Of a stretch of 64,000 nt of DNA, positions 2,372-11,357 are shown piece by piece. The notes beneath the pieces were generated by a model. It saw only the letters and a program-made list of their open reading frames with translations. It searched no databases and was not told the DNA's origin. Each line of letters begins with the position of its first letter. Within the stretch, counting starts at the first letter, position 1. Source of the DNA: Gemmatimonadota bacterium (GTDB lineage: Bacteria; Gemmatimonadota; Gemmatimonadetes; Longimicrobiales; Gaopeijiaceae); contig SLBA01000016.1 in assembly GCA_007126575.1 (NCBI GenBank), forward strand, positions 1 to 64,000, in the 5' to 3' direction. The position numbers and the translations under genes are program-made.

Positions 2372-2387
2372 TGGCACCCGTGTTGCC
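2372..2387 (+). promoter_or_regulatory. Sigma-54 (-24/-12) promoter
   Basis: The sequence TGGCACCCGTGTTGCC matches the RpoN consensus TGGCAC-N5-TTGCW at every fixed position except the last (C for A/T). The invariant GG (2373-2374) and GC (2385-2386) are separated by exactly 10 nt, as required. Transcription would start near 2397, leaving a leader of about 97 nt before the ATG at 2494. The same operon ends with an NtrC-type activator gene, which supports the assignment. Confidence 0.75.
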
Positions 2388-2493: not shown

Positions 2494-3006
2494 ATGAAGA
2501 AACTGACCATGATCCTCGCCCTCACCGCCTTCCTCGCGATTCCGGCGATGGTATCCGCGCAGGGCCAGGGAGACGCCGCGAGCATCAGCGCCACCGCCAC
2601 AGTGATCGCACAGCTCGAGGTTTCCGGCGAAGAAGACCTCCGCTTCGGCGATGTGATCCCGGGAATCGCCTCGACCATCGCAGCCACCGACGTGGGGAAC
2701 GCCGGGCGCTTCCAAATCCAGGGTGGGGGAAACCAGGAAGTGTCTCTGAGCTTTGACAACCTCACCGAGCTTGCAGCCACGGGCGGAGCGACGCTTCCGT
2801 TCGCCTTCGGTTCGAGCTCGGCCGGATTTGGTGTGAGCTCAGGGGAGGCTGACGGCACCTTCGACCCGCTTGCAGGGACCGATCAGCGCCTCGATAACGG
2901 TGTGCTCTACGTCTTTGTCGGCGGCACGGTGACTCCGACTGCGGGACAGCCGGCCGGATCGTACGAAGGTCAGATCACCCTGAACGTCGCCTACACCGGC
3001 AACTGA
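2494..3006 (+). CDS. DUF4402-like secreted structural subunit 1
   Basis: The product is about 170 aa. The ATG at 2494 is preceded by GGGAG at 2481-2485, a good Shine-Dalgarno at 8-nt spacing, so I prefer it to the TTG at 2479. Residues 1-22 are a signal peptide (MKKL start, cut VSA|QGQ). The mature protein is small, Gly/Ser/Thr-rich, Cys-free and beta-rich. It carries the pattern LRFGDVIPG near residue 48 and a C-terminal GSYEGQITLNVAY strand, which fit the DUF4402 family. It shares these features with the next gene product (3082), so the two look like paralogues. First in an operon with chaperone and usher-like genes, it is probably an exported fibre or surface-layer subunit, perhaps the major one. 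Family assignment is by pattern, not by search. Confidence 0.75.
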   Translation: MKKLTMILALTAFLAIPAMVSAQGQGDAASISATATVIAQLEVSGEEDLRFGDVIPGIASTIAATDVGNAGRFQIQGGGNQEVSLSFDNLTELAATGGATLPFAFGSSSAGFGVSSGEADGTFDPLAGTDQRLDNGVLYVFVGGTVTPTAGQPAGSYEGQITLNVAYTGN

Positions 3007-3015
3007 GTCCGCCTG

Positions 3016-3059
3016 GTCCGGTGCGGTCGGCGGGTCATCCTCCCGTCGGCCCACCGGAC
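3016..3059 (+). other. Intercistronic stem-loop between the two subunit genes
   Basis: GTCCGGTG at 3016-3023 pairs perfectly with CACCGGAC at 3052-3059. Inside the loop CGGG (3031-3034) can pair with CCCG (3042-3045). The hairpin sits 9 nt after the stop of the first subunit gene and is not followed by a T-run, so a simple intrinsic terminator is unlikely. An RNA-processing or stability element that raises the first subunit relative to downstream genes is one possibility (inference). Confidence 0.4.
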
Positions 3060-3081
3060 TGCGCGCTCACCTCCTCCCCCG

Positions 3082-3567
3082 ATGCGACTTGGCTCCCTTC
3101 TGACCCTTTCGATCACGATGCTCACGATCGCGGTGCCCGGTGCCCTCTCGGCGCAGCAGGGCCCTCCGCTCGCGGTACAGGGGCAACAGGACCTGAGCTT
3201 CGGAGAGCTGCTGGGGGGGCTGGCGACCCGGGTTTCGCCGAACGACGCGGGGCGGAACGCGCAGCTCCGCATCCGGGGCGCTCGAGATCAGACGATCGAG
3301 ATCTCCTTCGACCTGCCCGCCGAGATGTCGCGACCCGAAGGCGGCTCGATCCCCCTGCTCTTCGGAGCGGCCGATGCGCAGTTCTCGGCCAGCGGGGGCA
3401 CCGGCGACCGGATCCCCTTCGACCCGAACACGCCCTGGACCATCACGCTGACGCAGCAGGGATGGTCCTGGATCTTCCTGGGAGGCACGGTCCAGCCCCC
3501 GCCCCAGGCGCCGTTGGGAACCTACTCCGCAACGATCACACTCACCCTTTCCGACCTCGGAAGCTGA
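3082..3567 (+). CDS. DUF4402-like secreted structural subunit 2
   Basis: The product is 161 aa, with a signal peptide ending ALSA|QQG near residue 24. The mature part repeats the architecture of the preceding gene product: LSFGELLGG corresponds to LRFGDVIPG of subunit 1. A central block ends in ISFDLP, a LFGAADAQFSASGG segment follows, and it closes with an FLGGTV...GTYSATITLTL strand pair. No cysteine is present in the mature part. The differences from subunit 1 suggest a minor or tip-like component, or an adaptor to the usher-like protein, but this is inference. It ends 7 nt before the chaperone gene. Confidence 0.72.
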   Translation: MRLGSLLTLSITMLTIAVPGALSAQQGPPLAVQGQQDLSFGELLGGLATRVSPNDAGRNAQLRIRGARDQTIEISFDLPAEMSRPEGGSIPLLFGAADAQFSASGGTGDRIPFDPNTPWTITLTQQGWSWIFLGGTVQPPPQAPLGTYSATITLTLSDLGS

Positions 3568-3574
3568 GGACACC

Positions 3575-4411
3575 ATGAAGACCCTGATCCGCTCGCTGAC
3601 CCTGACCGTGCTGCTCGGCATGGGCGTCCTGACCGCCGAGGCGCTCTCGATCGTGGTCGCCCCCACGGCGGTCTACCTCGAGCACTCGACCCGCTCGGCC
3701 ACGGTGACCCTCTTCAATCCCGGTACCACTCCCGAAGAGGTCACGATCTCGACGCTCTTCGGCTACCCGACGACCGACGAGGACGGCCGCCTCCACCTGT
3801 TCACCGACGAGGCGGGCGACGATCCCCGGTCGGCGGCGGGGTGGCTGCGTGCCTATCCGCAGCGAGTGGTGGTCGGCCCCGGTGAGCGTCAGGTGGTCCG
3901 GCTCCTGGGCGAGCCCCCGGCCGACCTCCCCGATGGAGAGTACTGGGCGCGTCTGGCAATCACCTCGGGCGCCGAGTCGACGCAGGTCGGAACCGTCCCC
4001 GGCGAATCGGATGTCCGCGTCGGCCTCGACATGCGCGTGCGCACCGTGATCGCGGCCAACTACCGAAAGGGGTCGATCACCACCGGGCTCGAGATCGAGG
4101 ACTTTCAGCCCTGGATCGAGGATGGGCGCCTTCGCCTTCGCCCCCGGCTCCTCCGACAGGGCTCCGCGGCGTACATCTCGGCGCTGACCCTGACCCTGAC
4201 GGACCCGAACGGAGAGGTCGTGCGGGAGTGGCAGGAGCAGGTGGCGGTCTACCGCGAGTACCACCGCCTCTTCGAGTACGACGTCTCGGACCTGGGGCCG
4301 GGTCCCTTCCGCCTTCGGGCCCAGTTCAGTACCGATCGAGACGATGTGCCGGCCGCCTTCCGGCTGCGCACGACCCCGATCGAGCGGGAAGCCCCCGTGT
4401 CGCTGCGCTGA
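3575..4411 (+). CDS. PapD-like periplasmic chaperone
   Basis: The product is 278 aa with a signal peptide ending AEA|LS near residue 24. The N-terminal half has the immunoglobulin-like pattern of pilus chaperones: VVAPTAVYLEHSTRSATVTLFNPG at the start, in place of the usual 'P.R......R.......N', then LRAYPQRVVVGPGERQVVRLLG and LPDGEYWARLAI, which corresponds to the family's 'LPDGEYR..L' motif. The second half is longer and more divergent than in classical FimC/PapD proteins. It should act in the periplasm, capping the two DUF4402-like subunits before delivery to the usher-like barrel encoded 14 nt downstream. The fold call is fairly secure; its exact chaperone subfamily is not. Confidence 0.75.
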   Translation: MKTLIRSLTLTVLLGMGVLTAEALSIVVAPTAVYLEHSTRSATVTLFNPGTTPEEVTISTLFGYPTTDEDGRLHLFTDEAGDDPRSAAGWLRAYPQRVVVGPGERQVVRLLGEPPADLPDGEYWARLAITSGAESTQVGTVPGESDVRVGLDMRVRTVIAANYRKGSITTGLEIEDFQPWIEDGRLRLRPRLLRQGSAAYISALTLTLTDPNGEVVREWQEQVAVYREYHRLFEYDVSDLGPGPFRLRAQFSTDRDDVPAAFRLRTTPIEREAPVSLR

Positions 4412-4425
4412 TCGGAACCGACTCG

Positions 4426-7149
4426 ATGCGCTCCCCCCTTCGCACGGTCACCGCCCTCGGGCCGGTTCTCCTCTCCCGACTCCTGACCGTCTGCCTCCTG
4501 CTTGCTGCGGGTGAGCTGGTCGGGCAGGAGGGGGAGGGCACCCGGTATCCGGCATCGGTGCCCGCAATGGCATCCTCACCGGCGAACGCGAGCGCCACTC
4601 CGGACTCCCTCCACGCACCGATCGACATCCTCATCAACCTTCGCATGGGGCGCCTCTCGGAGCGACTCGTGCCCGCGGCACAGCGCGGGGACACCCCCTT
4701 CCTGCCGGCGGCGACCTTCCTCGAGATGGGAGAGGTCTTCTTCGTCGAGAACGGAGACGGGGTCCTGCGGGCCACGCGGCAGCCGGGCGCGATCGAGATC
4801 CTGGTCGACGCCGAAGCCGGCCGGGCCCGTCTCGGAGGCGAACTGCTGGCCGACGTGGCCGATCAGATGCTCTGGCGGGACGGCCGGATCATGCTCACCC
4901 CCCGACTCCTCGAGCGACTCCTGGGGGTCACGATCCACACGAATTTCTCGGATCTGCACGCCGTCGTCCTGAATCCCGAGGTGCTTCCCCTGGGACGCCG
5001 GATCGAGCGGGAGCGGCGACTCGCCGCACTCCGCCCTCCCGGTGAGACCCCTCCGGCCGAGCGGACCCTGGACCGCACCCCGTACCGCACCGGCGGCATG
5101 GTACTCGACTGGAGCACCTCGGCCGCGCTCGACCGGCCCCAGGAGAGCGCACAGCTCTCCCTCGGCTTCGGCGCACAGCTCCTGGGGGGCTCCCTCCAGC
5201 TCAGCGGCCGCAGCCAGGGTCCCGTGGCGGACGGAAACGTCGACACCGGGGCCAGCTACCACATCGCCTGGCCGCAACAGCGCTGGCTCCGGCAGCTGCG
5301 CCTCGGAGACGGCCTGGGCTCCGGTCCCCGGCCCCGGTCGCTGCGCGGAATCCACCTCACCAACGCGCCCTACGTTCGCGACGCCTACTTCGCCACGGCC
5401 GAGGTCACCGGACGCCTGGGCCCGGGCTGGGAGATCGAGCTTCGCCAGCAGGGGCGAACAATCGACATGACCCGGGCCGACGAGCAGGGTGCGTTCGCGC
5501 TCGACGTGCCCCTCAGCTACGGCACGAATCCCATCGAGGTGGTGGCCTATGGTGCGCACGGCGAGGTCGTCACGATGGAGCGACTCATGCTCCTTCGACA
5601 GGACCGCCTTCCCGGAGGCCGCTTCGAGTGGGGGCTGAGCGCGGGCGAATGCCGATCCGGCGCCTGCCGGGCCGCGGGGAACCTGGACCTCCGCTACGGC
5701 CTCTCCGACCGCTGGACGTTGCGCGCCGGCGCGGACGGATTCCACCGCGACACCCTCCCCGACCTCGCGCACCCCTACCTCGAGCTGTCGGGGTCCCCGG
5801 TGCACTCGGTGCACCTGGGGCTCGAGGCGCTCTACGACGGATTCTACCGAGGGGTGACCGAGTTCACCCCCTCGTCGAATCTACGCGTGCGGGGCGCCTA
5901 CACCTGGTTTCAGCCCGAGCTGGAGGCGCCGGTCCTGCACGACGCCCGCCGCCGCTCCACGACCGAGGCCGATCTCTTCTGGCGGCCATTCGGAGCCGGC
6001 AACCGCTGGAGCCTGAGGGGCTCGGCGGTCTACGAGGAGCGGCGCGACGACTGGCGCCTCCGCTGGCGAGCGACCTCGGCCCTGCAGCTCGGCGGATACC
6101 GGGTCGAGCTGGGAGTGCAGGACCCGGGGCGCTACCAGTCGCACGAGCTCGAGCGCGGCCTCTTCCTGTCGGGCGATCAACCGCTTCGACAGATCGCCTC
6201 GGTCCGGGGGCGGATCCCCCTTCCGAGCCCGACCACGCTCTCGCCCTGGCTCCACGCCGAGATCGAGACGATCGGGTGGGACTCGATCGCCCGCGGTCAG
6301 CTTCGCCTCAGCTATCCGGTCACGCGCAGTACCCAGCTCAACCTCACCGGGGGATGGGACCCGACCGGAGACCATCGCTTCACCGCGGGACTCCAGGCGA
6401 CGCTCGACCAGCTCCGCTCCGTGACCCAGGTCTTCGGCGGGGCGAACCGGGAGATCCGCGCGCTTCAGTACGCCCAGGGGAACGTGCAGTGGAACGAGGC
6501 CACCGGTGGATTCCGCCTCGATTCCGGGCCGGGGGTGGAACGGGCCGGGATCTCGGGATACGTCTTTCTCGACGAGAACGGGAACGGGCGAAGGGATCCC
6601 GGGGAACCGGTGCTCTCGGGCGTCCGGGTGGTGATCGACGGCCGGTCGGTGACCACCGACGAGCAGGGTCGCTACACGCACTGGGACCTGACCCCCTACG
6701 AGATGACCCGGGTGCAGATGGATCCAATGACGCTCCCGAACCCGCTCTGGGTCCCGGCGCTCGGGACGATCGAGCTGCCCCTCGCCCCCTCGTCGTACCG
6801 GCGACTCGACCTGCCGGTGGTGCCCGGCGCCGAGCTCAGCGGGCGCGTGGTCCGGATCACCGGTGACGGGCGCGAGGAGCCGGTGGCGGGAATGGAGATC
6901 GTGATCGCCGACCTGGTGCGGCCCGGAGAGCAGACCGAGATCACGACCTTCTCGGACGGTGGCTTCTACGCGATGGGACTCAAGCCCGGAGCCTACGAGC
7001 TGCGAGTCCCATCCGAGCTCCTGGACCACGTGCAGCTCACACAGGATCACCCGGATCGCGCCGTGGTCGTGCGTTCGAACGGTGAGCGCTCCGCCGGCAA
7101 CGTCGTCATCCGGCTCGTACCGAAGCCCACCGTGACAGCATCGCCATGA
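4426..7149 (+). CDS. Usher-like outer-membrane protein with C-terminal beta-sandwich domains
   Basis: The product is about 907 aa from the ATG at 4426; an in-frame start at 4228 lies inside the chaperone gene and is rejected. A signal peptide (cut near residue 33) is followed by a soluble N-terminal region. A long beta-barrel-like segment then shows usher features: RSLRGIHLTNAPYVRD, GWEIELRQQG, and LSYGTNPIEVVAYGAHGEV, parallel to the usher 'VELYxNG' and 'GxNxIxVxxYGP' blocks. From about residue 700 it has an SdrD-B-like domain (GYVFLDENGNGRRDPGEPV) and a second carboxypeptidase-regulatory-like domain. It probably forms the outer-membrane export and assembly pore for the upstream subunits. 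It is divergent from FimD/PapC, and an independent family of barrel is possible. Confidence 0.7.
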   Translation: MRSPLRTVTALGPVLLSRLLTVCLLLAAGELVGQEGEGTRYPASVPAMASSPANASATPDSLHAPIDILINLRMGRLSERLVPAAQRGDTPFLPAATFLEMGEVFFVENGDGVLRATRQPGAIEILVDAEAGRARLGGELLADVADQMLWRDGRIMLTPRLLERLLGVTIHTNFSDLHAVVLNPEVLPLGRRIERERRLAALRPPGETPPAERTLDRTPYRTGGMVLDWSTSAALDRPQESAQLSLGFGAQLLGGSLQLSGRSQGPVADGNVDTGASYHIAWPQQRWLRQLRLGDGLGSGPRPRSLRGIHLTNAPYVRDAYFATAEVTGRLGPGWEIELRQQGRTIDMTRADEQGAFALDVPLSYGTNPIEVVAYGAHGEVVTMERLMLLRQDRLPGGRFEWGLSAGECRSGACRAAGNLDLRYGLSDRWTLRAGADGFHRDTLPDLAHPYLELSGSPVHSVHLGLEALYDGFYRGVTEFTPSSNLRVRGAYTWFQPELEAPVLHDARRRSTTEADLFWRPFGAGNRWSLRGSAVYEERRDDWRLRWRATSALQLGGYRVELGVQDPGRYQSHELERGLFLSGDQPLRQIASVRGRIPLPSPTTLSPWLHAEIETIGWDSIARGQLRLSYPVTRSTQLNLTGGWDPTGDHRFTAGLQATLDQLRSVTQVFGGANREIRALQYAQGNVQWNEATGGFRLDSGPGVERAGISGYVFLDENGNGRRDPGEPVLSGVRVVIDGRSVTTDEQGRYTHWDLTPYEMTRVQMDPMTLPNPLWVPALGTIELPLAPSSYRRLDLPVVPGAELSGRVVRITGDGREEPVAGMEIVIADLVRPGEQTEITTFSDGGFYAMGLKPGAYELRVPSELLDHVQLTQDHPDRAVVVRSNGERSAGNVVIRLVPKPTVTASP

Positions 7150-7212: not shown

Positions 7213-8562
7213 ATGAGCCAGACGCTCCTCCTCGTCGACGACGACACCACCATCCTGAACTCGATCGGCCGCTACCTCGAGAGAGATGGCTTCGAGGTCC
7301 TGCTCGAAACCCGAGGGCACCCCGCCCTGGCCACCTTCGAGGCCCATCGCCCCGAGGTGGTGCTCCTGGACCTGAAGCTTCCCGACGTGGAGCACCTCGA
7401 GATCCTCGAGCGACTGCGCGACTGGAATGCGTCGGTGATCCTTCTGACCGGGCATGCCGACGTGCCCACCGCCGTCGAGGCGATGCAGCTCGGGGCCGAG
7501 AGCTTCCTGGCGAAGCCGGTCGAACTCGACCACCTCTCCGCCGTCCTGAAGCAGGTGCTCGAGAAGAACCGGCTCCTCCGCGAGAACGAGCGCCTCCGGC
7601 AGGGAGGGACCGCGGCCGAGGGCCTCGAGGCCCTCGGGGTTTCCCGGGGGATGAGGGAGCTCGCCGAGCAGATCGAGATGCTCTCGGCTTCGGAGCGGAC
7701 CACCGTCCTGCTGACCGGTGAGAGCGGGACCGGGAAGGGGTGGGTAGCCCGGATGCTGCACGGCCTGAGTCCCCGGGGACGGCGGCCCTTCGTCGAGGTG
7801 AACTCGGCCGGCCTGACCCCCACCTTCCTGGCCTCGGAGCTCTTCGGCCACGAGAAGGGGGCCTTCACCGACGCCCGCGAACGGCGCGACGGCCTCTTCC
7901 TCGAGGCGGACCGGGGCACCCTCTTCCTGGACGAGATCGGGGAGATGAGTCTCGACATCCAGCCCCGCCTGCTGAACGTGCTCGAGACCCGCAGCTTCCG
8001 GCGCCTCGGGGGGAGCGAGGAGCTCCATGCCGACGTCCGGCTGATCGCTGCCACGAACCGGAATCTTTCGGAGCGGGTCGAGGACGGTCGCTTCCGCGAG
8101 GACCTCTTCTACCGACTCAATGTGGCCTCGCTCCACCTGCCTCCCCTGCGGGAGCGGACCGACGACGACCGCCTGGCACTCCTGCACGGGCTGCTGGCGG
8201 GGCTGCGAAAGGAGATCCCGGGGAGCGCCGATCGGATCCACGATGACGCCCTCGACGTCCTCCTCTCCTACCGATGGCCGGGGAACATCCGCGAGATGCG
8301 AAACACGCTGGAGCGGGCGCTCATCTTCTCGGCCGGGGGTGAAGAGATCCGGCGGACCCACCTGCCGGCCGACCTGGTCCGGCGGGGGGGAACCTCACGC
8401 TCGAAGGGATTTCAACCCAGAACGCTCGAGGCCGTCGAGGCCCGCCACATCGAGCGCACCCTCCTGCATCACCGGGGAAACCGGACGCACGCGGCCGACG
8501 ACCTGGGGATCGCTCGGACGACCCTGATCAACAAGATTCGCAAGTACGAACTGGACCTGTAG
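7213..8562 (+). CDS. NtrC-family sigma-54-dependent response regulator
   Basis: The product is 449 aa with the three classical domains. The receiver (1-118) has DDD at 10-12, phospho-acceptor Asp53 and Lys101. The AAA+ domain has Walker A GESGTGKG (169-176), Walker B LFLDE (237-241), an arginine-rich sensor region and the sigma-54 contact loop. A Fis-type helix-turn-helix closes the C-terminus (about 410-449). The contact loop reads GAFTDA (216-221) instead of the usual GAFTGA. It lies 63 nt downstream of the usher-like gene, with a GGAG ribosome-binding site. No cognate kinase is adjacent. With the -24/-12 promoter at 2372 it is the obvious candidate regulator of the appendage operon. The last 35 nt overlap the convergent hydrolase gene. 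Confidence 0.93.
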   Translation: MSQTLLLVDDDTTILNSIGRYLERDGFEVLLETRGHPALATFEAHRPEVVLLDLKLPDVEHLEILERLRDWNASVILLTGHADVPTAVEAMQLGAESFLAKPVELDHLSAVLKQVLEKNRLLRENERLRQGGTAAEGLEALGVSRGMRELAEQIEMLSASERTTVLLTGESGTGKGWVARMLHGLSPRGRRPFVEVNSAGLTPTFLASELFGHEKGAFTDARERRDGLFLEADRGTLFLDEIGEMSLDIQPRLLNVLETRSFRRLGGSEELHADVRLIAATNRNLSERVEDGRFREDLFYRLNVASLHLPPLRERTDDDRLALLHGLLAGLRKEIPGSADRIHDDALDVLLSYRWPGNIREMRNTLERALIFSAGGEEIRRTHLPADLVRRGGTSRSKGFQPRTLEAVEARHIERTLLHHRGNRTHAADDLGIARTTLINKIRKYELDL

Positions 8563-10487: not shown

Positions 10488-11357
10488 TCAGTTCGGGTCT
10501 CGGTTCTCAAGGCGGTCGAACTCCTCGAGCAGCTCCGCCTCCTGGATCTCGCCTTCGTGCGCCTTCGCCTCGGCCGCCTTCCGGCGATCGAAGTCGGAGA
10601 TGGAGTTGGCGTCGGGATCGACGGCCTCGTCGTCTTCCGCCTCTTCACCGGCCTGAAGCTGACGCCGTTCCTCTCCGGCGGGTCCGAGCAGACCCATCTC
10701 CCTTTTCAGGGCAAGGAGACGACCATCCATGTCGTCGCCCGTCTCCAGCTGGCGGAACTCGTCTTCGAGGGTGTCTCCGGTCAGCGCTTCGGACACCTCG
10801 GCCGAGGCCAGGCTGCGCCGCTCCGACTCCTCGATCTTCTCGGCCATCCGGTTGAACGCGTCGAATGCCGACGTGTCGGAGAGCCCCGACATCGTCTCGT
10901 GGATCCGCTTCTGGGCCTGCGCGCGCTTCTGCTTGGCGATCAGGAGGTTCCGCTTGCGCTTGGCCTCTTCGATCTTGTCGTTCAGCTGCTTCAGCGAGGC
11001 CTTGAGCTTCTCGGTCTCCTGCGCCTGTCCCTGCCAGGTCTGCTCCAGGGCGTGGCCCCGGTCGGCGTGTTCCTGGTGGCGAAGGAGCGCCTGCTTGGCC
11101 AGGTCGTCACGACCTTCCTGGACCGCGAGCATGGCCCGCCGCTCCCAGTCCTTGGCCTGCTTCATCTCGTCTTCGAGCTGTGACCGGAGCTTTCGCTCGT
11201 CGGCGATCGCGGCCGCGACCTCGCGCTTGGCCTTCGCCAGCTGGTCGCGCATGTCGAGAATGATCTGGTTCAGCATCTTCTCGGGGTCTTCGGCCCGAGC
11301 GATCAGATCATTGATGTTGGACCTGAAGAGGGTCGAAATCTTTGAAAATATGCTCAT
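10488..11357 (-). CDS. pspA: PspA/IM30 family membrane-stress protein
   Basis: The product is 289 aa. It begins MSIFSKISTLFRSNINDLI, the amphipathic membrane-binding helix of PspA proteins, followed by EDPEKMLNQIILDM and a long alpha-helical coiled coil to about residue 220. The remaining C-terminal tail is acidic and longer than in E. coli PspA (about 220 aa). PspA/IM30 proteins coat and remodel damaged inner membranes as ESCRT-III-like polymers. No pspF, pspB or pspC gene is nearby. It is instead coupled to a YbjN-like gene 3 nt upstream and to dat 8 nt downstream, a layout that suggests constitutive or differently controlled envelope maintenance. Confidence 0.93.
   Translation of the reverse strand: MSIFSKISTLFRSNINDLIARAEDPEKMLNQIILDMRDQLAKAKREVAAAIADERKLRSQLEDEMKQAKDWERRAMLAVQEGRDDLAKQALLRHQEHADRGHALEQTWQGQAQETEKLKASLKQLNDKIEEAKRKRNLLIAKQKRAQAQKRIHETMSGLSDTSAFDAFNRMAEKIEESERRSLASAEVSEALTGDTLEDEFRQLETGDDMDGRLLALKREMGLLGPAGEERRQLQAGEEAEDDEAVDPDANSISDFDRRKAAEAKAHEGEIQEAELLEEFDRLENRDPN

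Follow-up and report, generated by a model that had tools for sequence, protein, structure and literature searches.

The locus analyzed here raises the question of whether two small DUF4402-like proteins, encoded beside a divergent chaperone and a 907-amino-acid barrel protein in a Gemmatimonadota genome, form a fiber by a pathway of their own. We analyzed a stretch of 64,000 nucleotides (the 64-kb window), which a preliminary description had proposed to encode a chaperone/usher-like system and possibly a distinct fiber assembly pathway. The first part of this proposal can now be put more firmly, but the second part does not hold: a divergent lineage of the chaperone-usher pathway is a better description. 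Very probably, these genes constitute a chaperone-usher pilus operon that is minimal yet complete and belongs to a nonclassical lineage, with sub1 as the shaft, sub2 as the tip, and sigma-54 control. Its membership in the chaperone-usher pathway is well supported; there is no such support for placing it in the classical or the archaic class, because the residues or domains that define those classes were looked for and are not present. The features are:

2372 to 2386, forward strand: sigma-54 (-24/-12) promoter, TGGCAC-CCGTG-TTGC; an exact motif match, conserved upstream of subunit genes
2494 to 3006, forward strand: sub1, the proposed shaft pilin; DUF4402, signal peptide, and a putative N-terminal donor-strand extension (mature residues about 5 to 17)
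3082 to 3567, forward strand: sub2, a paralog of sub1; pilin domain without the N-terminal extension; proposed tip or initiator subunit
3575 to 4411, forward strand: PapD-like periplasmic chaperone (weak PapD_N match, and hhalign), with Trp124 and Arg126 in strand F1
4426 to 7149, forward strand: predicted outer-membrane usher, 907 amino acids; N-terminal domain (about 66 to 181), 24-strand barrel, plug (321 to 390), CTD1 (SdrD_B), and CTD2 (CarboxypepD_reg)
7213 to 8562, forward strand: NtrC-family response regulator (Pfam: receiver, sigma-54 activator, Fis-type HTH), 63 bp past the usher

The four open reading frames from sub1 to the usher are separated by just 75, 7, and 14 bases, and all four products have signal-peptide-like starts. 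As had been described, the two subunits are paralogs (phmmer E = 2.8e-22, 32% identity) and neither contains any cysteine. The linkage of the four genes is not due to chance: of 44 homologous loci, which come from Gemmatimonadota and from proteobacterial plasmids, nearly all show the order subunit-subunit-chaperone-(optional third subunit)-usher. In some loci (among L101, L108, L040-L043, and L047), the chaperone is preceded by three or four subunits, and two genomes, G067 and G084, have two separate systems each. Elsewhere in the window, 353-1729, upstream of the operon, encodes a NamZ-type exo-beta-N-acetylmuramidase (both Pfam domains are strong, and the start is lipoprotein-like), and 10488-11357, on the reverse strand, encodes a PspA/IM30 family protein and adjoins an aminotransferase class IV gene.

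Is the 907-amino-acid protein an usher? It has no match to Pfam's Usher model (PF00577), and a sequence-only search of the PDB with the profile of its family gave no convincing match to an usher. However, the profile aligned to five classical ushers from E. coli K-12 with hhalign (94.7%, E = 6.3e-8), and in this profile-profile alignment the plug region of FimD aligns with an inserted domain of the 907-amino-acid protein. The AlphaFold2 model (pLDDT 80.1, from a 20-row alignment) contains an N-terminal domain (66-181), a linker helix (188-202), 6 barrel strands (225-312), the inserted six-strand domain (321-390), 18 more barrel strands (400-690), and then two beta domains. When this model was compared to the PDB with Foldseek, the best 18 matches were all to FimD or PapC (top E = 2.1e-27, probability 1.00), and these were followed by SdrD-type domains and unrelated porins. 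Thus, the protein is predicted to be a complete usher with the layout of FimD and PapC, including a plug between strands 6 and 7 of a 24-strand barrel. The preliminary description had reported SdrD_B and CarboxypepD_reg domains, both of which Pfam does find, and considered them to be additions outside the standard layout. We dropped the idea of extra domains once the usher fold was seen: in the model, the two domains sit at the positions of CTD1 and CTD2. Because CarboxypepD_reg was found in 20 of 20 usher homologs and SdrD_B in 19 of 20, these are the constitutive CTD1 and CTD2 of this usher family.

The subunits were also compared to pilins by both sequence and structure. Sub1 exceeds Pfam's cutoff for DUF4402 (32.1 versus 25.2 bits), but sub2 falls below it (18.1 bits, E = 0.0043); across the family, 77 of 91 subunits have a DUF4402 match. 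Just 4 of the 91 match Pfam's SCPU family, and weakly (best E = 0.0014), so that the subunits do not have the SCPU domains of the archaic class and the relation to SCPU is distant. When the subunit profile was compared to sequences in the PDB, the sole significant match was the SCPU pilin 8cio_A (E = 2.2e-4), a chain that was deposited in five copies and that we take to be from the CupE pilus. The authors of the CupE structure built five CupE1 subunits, and the donor strand of CupE1 is reported to have 13 residues (PMC10104325). With hhalign, the family's subunits and E. coli pilins aligned collinearly from end to end (67.8%, with cross-controls at or below 1.8%). The AlphaFold2 model of sub1 (from an alignment of 91 subunits) has a pLDDT of 92.8, and most of the core is above 94. 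Of its 50 best matches by Foldseek, 46 are chaperone-usher pilins, albeit with modest TM-scores (0.36-0.54); CfaB is the top match, and the others include the pilin domain of PapG, CsuA/B, FimA/F/G/I, PapE, SafA, and Caf1.

The preliminary description had seen no obvious donor strand, but sub1 seems to have one. An N-terminal extension of 12-15 residues with alternating hydrophobic residues (I9, A11, A13, and V15 of the mature protein) lies outside the confident, pilin-like core: the first 19 residues are modeled without secondary structure, and the mean confidence is around 70 across the first 20. In 40 sequences of the S1 class, position 9 is mostly I/V, positions 11 and 13 are mostly A, and position 15 is mostly V/I, with T, S, or N between them. 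The sub1 model thus has the predicted form of a pilin, that is, an Ig-like fold that probably lacks its last strand and carries an N-terminal extension. It had been reasoned that closed subunit folds and a barrel without a plug would count against a chaperone-usher system, and the predicted folds of sub1 and of the usher show neither. A pilus building block is the likely job of the DUF4402 family.

The chaperone was described as PapD-like but divergent, and its match to PapD_N is indeed weak (E = 0.088). PapD_N was found in 6 of 20 chaperone homologs (best E = 2.3e-4), and sequence-only searches of the PDB with the chaperone profile gave no convincing match to a solved chaperone; weak matches to abrin (E = 0.08-0.46) were taken as chance. 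Against a set of E. coli chaperones (FimC), hhalign gave 39.9%, with cross-controls of at most 1.8%. The gene's position next to the usher and the protein's length fit a two-domain periplasmic chaperone, which would have a PapD-like fold.

In classical chaperones, subunits are anchored by a basic pair in domain 1 (Arg8 and Lys112 of PapD, or Arg20 and Lys139 of Caf1M). In our family, position 32, which corresponds to Arg8, is alanine in 30 of 40 chaperones, and no conserved lysine was seen in the G1 region. Nonclassical chaperones lack the classical pair and are marked instead by an invariant proline in strand D1 (Pro59 of CsuC or Pro60 of EcpB), Arg89 in strand F1, and Tyr196 and Arg174 in domain 2 (PMC4654587). 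The proline is present: Pro95 aligns with Pro60 of EcpB and is conserved in 39 of 40 sequences, with one gap. Tyr226 (39/40) and Arg194 (35/40) are candidates for the equivalents of Tyr196 and Arg174. The position of Arg89, however, is Trp124 in all 40 chaperones from Gemmatimonadota, with an invariant arginine (Arg126) two residues further on, whereas all four proteobacterial relatives have arginine at the Arg89 position and histidine or valine two residues on. Since two residues along a strand is on the same face, Arg126 may take over from Arg89 as the anchor for the subunit.

We then considered the role of sub2. From the predicted cleavage site to an invariant phenylalanine, the subunit right before the chaperone (S2) has fewer residues than S1 in every one of the 34 loci compared and fewer than S3 in all 15. 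This stretch holds the N-terminal extension, which S1 and S3 have and S2 does not: its median length is 26 residues in S1 (range, 22-30), 26 in S3 (23-32), and 14 in S2 (11-22), where cleavage sites were placed by a simple AxA-Q rule and single values may err by a few residues. From this phenylalanine onward, the cores are similar (medians of 118 residues in S1 and 121 in S2). As S2 could accept a strand but could not donate one, it could only start a fiber, and therefore sub2 should be the tip. By analogy, the minor subunits of AAF have no such extension and occupy the tip in solved structures (PMC4169507), and a start by an extension-less subunit in AAF pili of E. coli is a further structural precedent (PMC5029526). 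We infer that sub2 is the first, distal subunit. A terminator was ruled out because it must donate a strand.

It is unlikely that sub2 has some other role, such as an initiator that remains in the periplasm or, after all, a terminator. Its place directly before the chaperone is fixed, yet it has neither a binding pocket nor a second domain that would identify it as an adhesin; but a terminator has to donate a strand to the subunit ahead of it, and sub2 could not do so, and the extension-less subunits of AAF are at the tip. Somewhat less unlikely is that the product of the same machinery is not a discrete pilus but a thin polyadhesin coat, capsule-like or amorphous, as with the F1 antigen or Saf. 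The matches of the sub1 core to the Caf1 and SafA structures, together with a weak match of one family subunit to Pfam's Caf1 antigen family, would fit such a coat, as would an operon with single-domain subunits only and no two-domain adhesin; however, the closest match by sequence is the SCPU pilin 8cio and not Caf1. We give very little credence to a different secretion pathway in which a usher-like barrel exports folded DUF4402 proteins without donor-strand exchange. Pfam does not recognize the usher and barely recognizes the chaperone, and the C-terminal domains come from other families, but this pathway is difficult to reconcile with the full usher layout, the pilin fold with its free N-terminal extension, and an operon grammar that is the same as in chaperone-usher systems.

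If the locus is a chaperone-usher pilus operon, then assembly would proceed as follows. Sub1 and sub2, which have signal peptides, would be exported by Sec. Each would be an Ig-like pilin without its last strand and would be held by the PapD-like chaperone, which would lend a strand and anchor the subunit's C-terminus. The complexes would dock on the N-terminal domain of the usher, the plug would move aside, and the fiber would grow through the 24-strand pore, while CTD1 and CTD2, whose layout is predicted, would handle the base of the growing fiber as in FimD and PapC. Sub2, with a pilin core but no donor strand, would enter first, and sub1, with both, would form the shaft behind it by donor-strand exchange between subunits. 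The fiber would presumably be on the cell surface. No further copies of the subunits or the chaperone were found in the genome.

Transcription would be from the sigma-54 promoter. Within the window, TGGCAC-N5-TTGC is matched exactly at one site only, 2372-2386 (none in 100 shuffles; expected, 0.00). Across the genome, there are 8 exact matches, versus 5 for a reversed-pattern control, so the motif by itself is weak evidence and the weight lies in its conservation. In 30 of the 44 loci, a site scoring at least 9 of 11 precedes the first subunit, as compared to 2% of the control stretches taken from these loci, and the sites mostly end 76-129 nt before that subunit. No sigma-54 site was present in the proteobacterial plasmid loci. 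Conserved promoters include those of the window, L032, L033, L037, L047, L093, L096, and L099-L101. A fixed C after TTGC, which is unusual, was seen in 27 of 29 sites upstream of operons. The genome encodes RpoN. An NtrC-type response regulator is directly downstream of the window's usher, and its orthologs take the same place in G001 and G011. In other loci, either a sigma-54 activator or else a hybrid histidine kinase is encoded next to the usher or near it; the regulator at 7213-8562 probably controls the operon. In eight loci (L034, L090, and L094-L099), the adjacent gene that is convergent with the usher encodes a receiver domain; two of these were run against Pfam, and both are hybrid histidine kinases.

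How widespread are these systems? A search with the 907-amino-acid protein found about 20 long homologs in 98 related genomes (27-94% identity), and a single-protein search of genome contigs found the sister genome alone (REBS01000113.1). The usher family profile identified ushers in 55 of 298 Gemmatimonadota genomes (E ≤ 1e-60). Pfam's Usher model matched 2 of the 298, with 1 above the cutoff, so surveys that rely on this model would miss these systems. That one usher (G006:C1:3708719-3710020; L053, L055) is missed by the family profile. In the usher tree, the window's protein clusters with families of other orders and not with the other two of its own order (97/94, 21-row clade), a placement that points to horizontal transfer or to an old paralogy. 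In tblastn searches of plasmids, the operon was also located on two plasmids of Polaromonas and in Sphingopyxis and Pseudoalteromonas; tblastn with sub1 gave zero matches. On these plasmids, the subunits are annotated as "DUF4402," the chaperones as "molecular chaperone" or, in one case by NCBI, "fimbria/pilus periplasmic chaperone," and the ushers as "carboxypeptidase regulatory-like" or "SdrD B-like."

Among known systems, the archaic (sigma) pili, such as CupE of Pseudomonas aeruginosa and Csu of Acinetobacter baumannii, share with our system the matches to SCPU pilins and a chaperone without the classical anchor residues, as well as Arg89 in the proteobacterial relatives. CupE6 and CsuE have two domains, whereas all the subunits in the operon are single-domain and there is no two-domain tip adhesin. 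Also unlike the archaic pili, the window's subunits have no disulfide and belong to DUF4402 instead of SCPU, W124/R126 stands in for Arg89 in Gemmatimonadota, and the CTDs of the usher are of the SdrD_B and CarboxypepD_reg types. In archaic and alternative systems, the register of the donor strand is shifted by one donor residue (P0). The alternative pili (CFA/I and Ecp) are similar in that CfaB is sub1's top structural match and that the conserved Pro and Trp124 align with Pro60 and Arg89 of EcpB, but the profiles match the single sequences of EcpC (4.8%) and EcpB (12.1%) poorly. Classical type 1 (Fim) and P (Pap) pili have the same usher layout and pilin fold; they differ in the Arg8 equivalent, in Pfam's failure to find PF00577 or PapD_N above its cutoff in our system, and in their lectin-bearing tip. 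In AAF/Afa-Dr polyadhesins, a single-domain subunit without an extension also tips a polymer of the major subunit (PMC4169507), but these belong to the classical FGL lineage, and no sequence relation to the window's system was found.

Our literature searches found no description of a DUF4402 chaperone-usher family and no full-text mention of DUF4402. More tentatively, and as a possibility that we do not favor strongly, DUF4402 systems might be a separate deep lineage of chaperone-usher systems, beside the classical, alternative, and archaic ones, in which the chaperone's carboxylate-anchoring arginine shifted by two positions in strand F1 (W-x-R), a single-domain tip lost its donor strand, and, in Gemmatimonadota, expression became tied to sigma-54. 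Overall, these results propose a function for DUF4402 and suggest that chaperone-usher fiber systems are common in Gemmatimonadota, a phylum in which they are hardly ever picked up by standard annotation. The rule of a tip without a donor strand and the W-x-R switch also make sharp, testable predictions about the evolution of subunit order and of chaperone binding.
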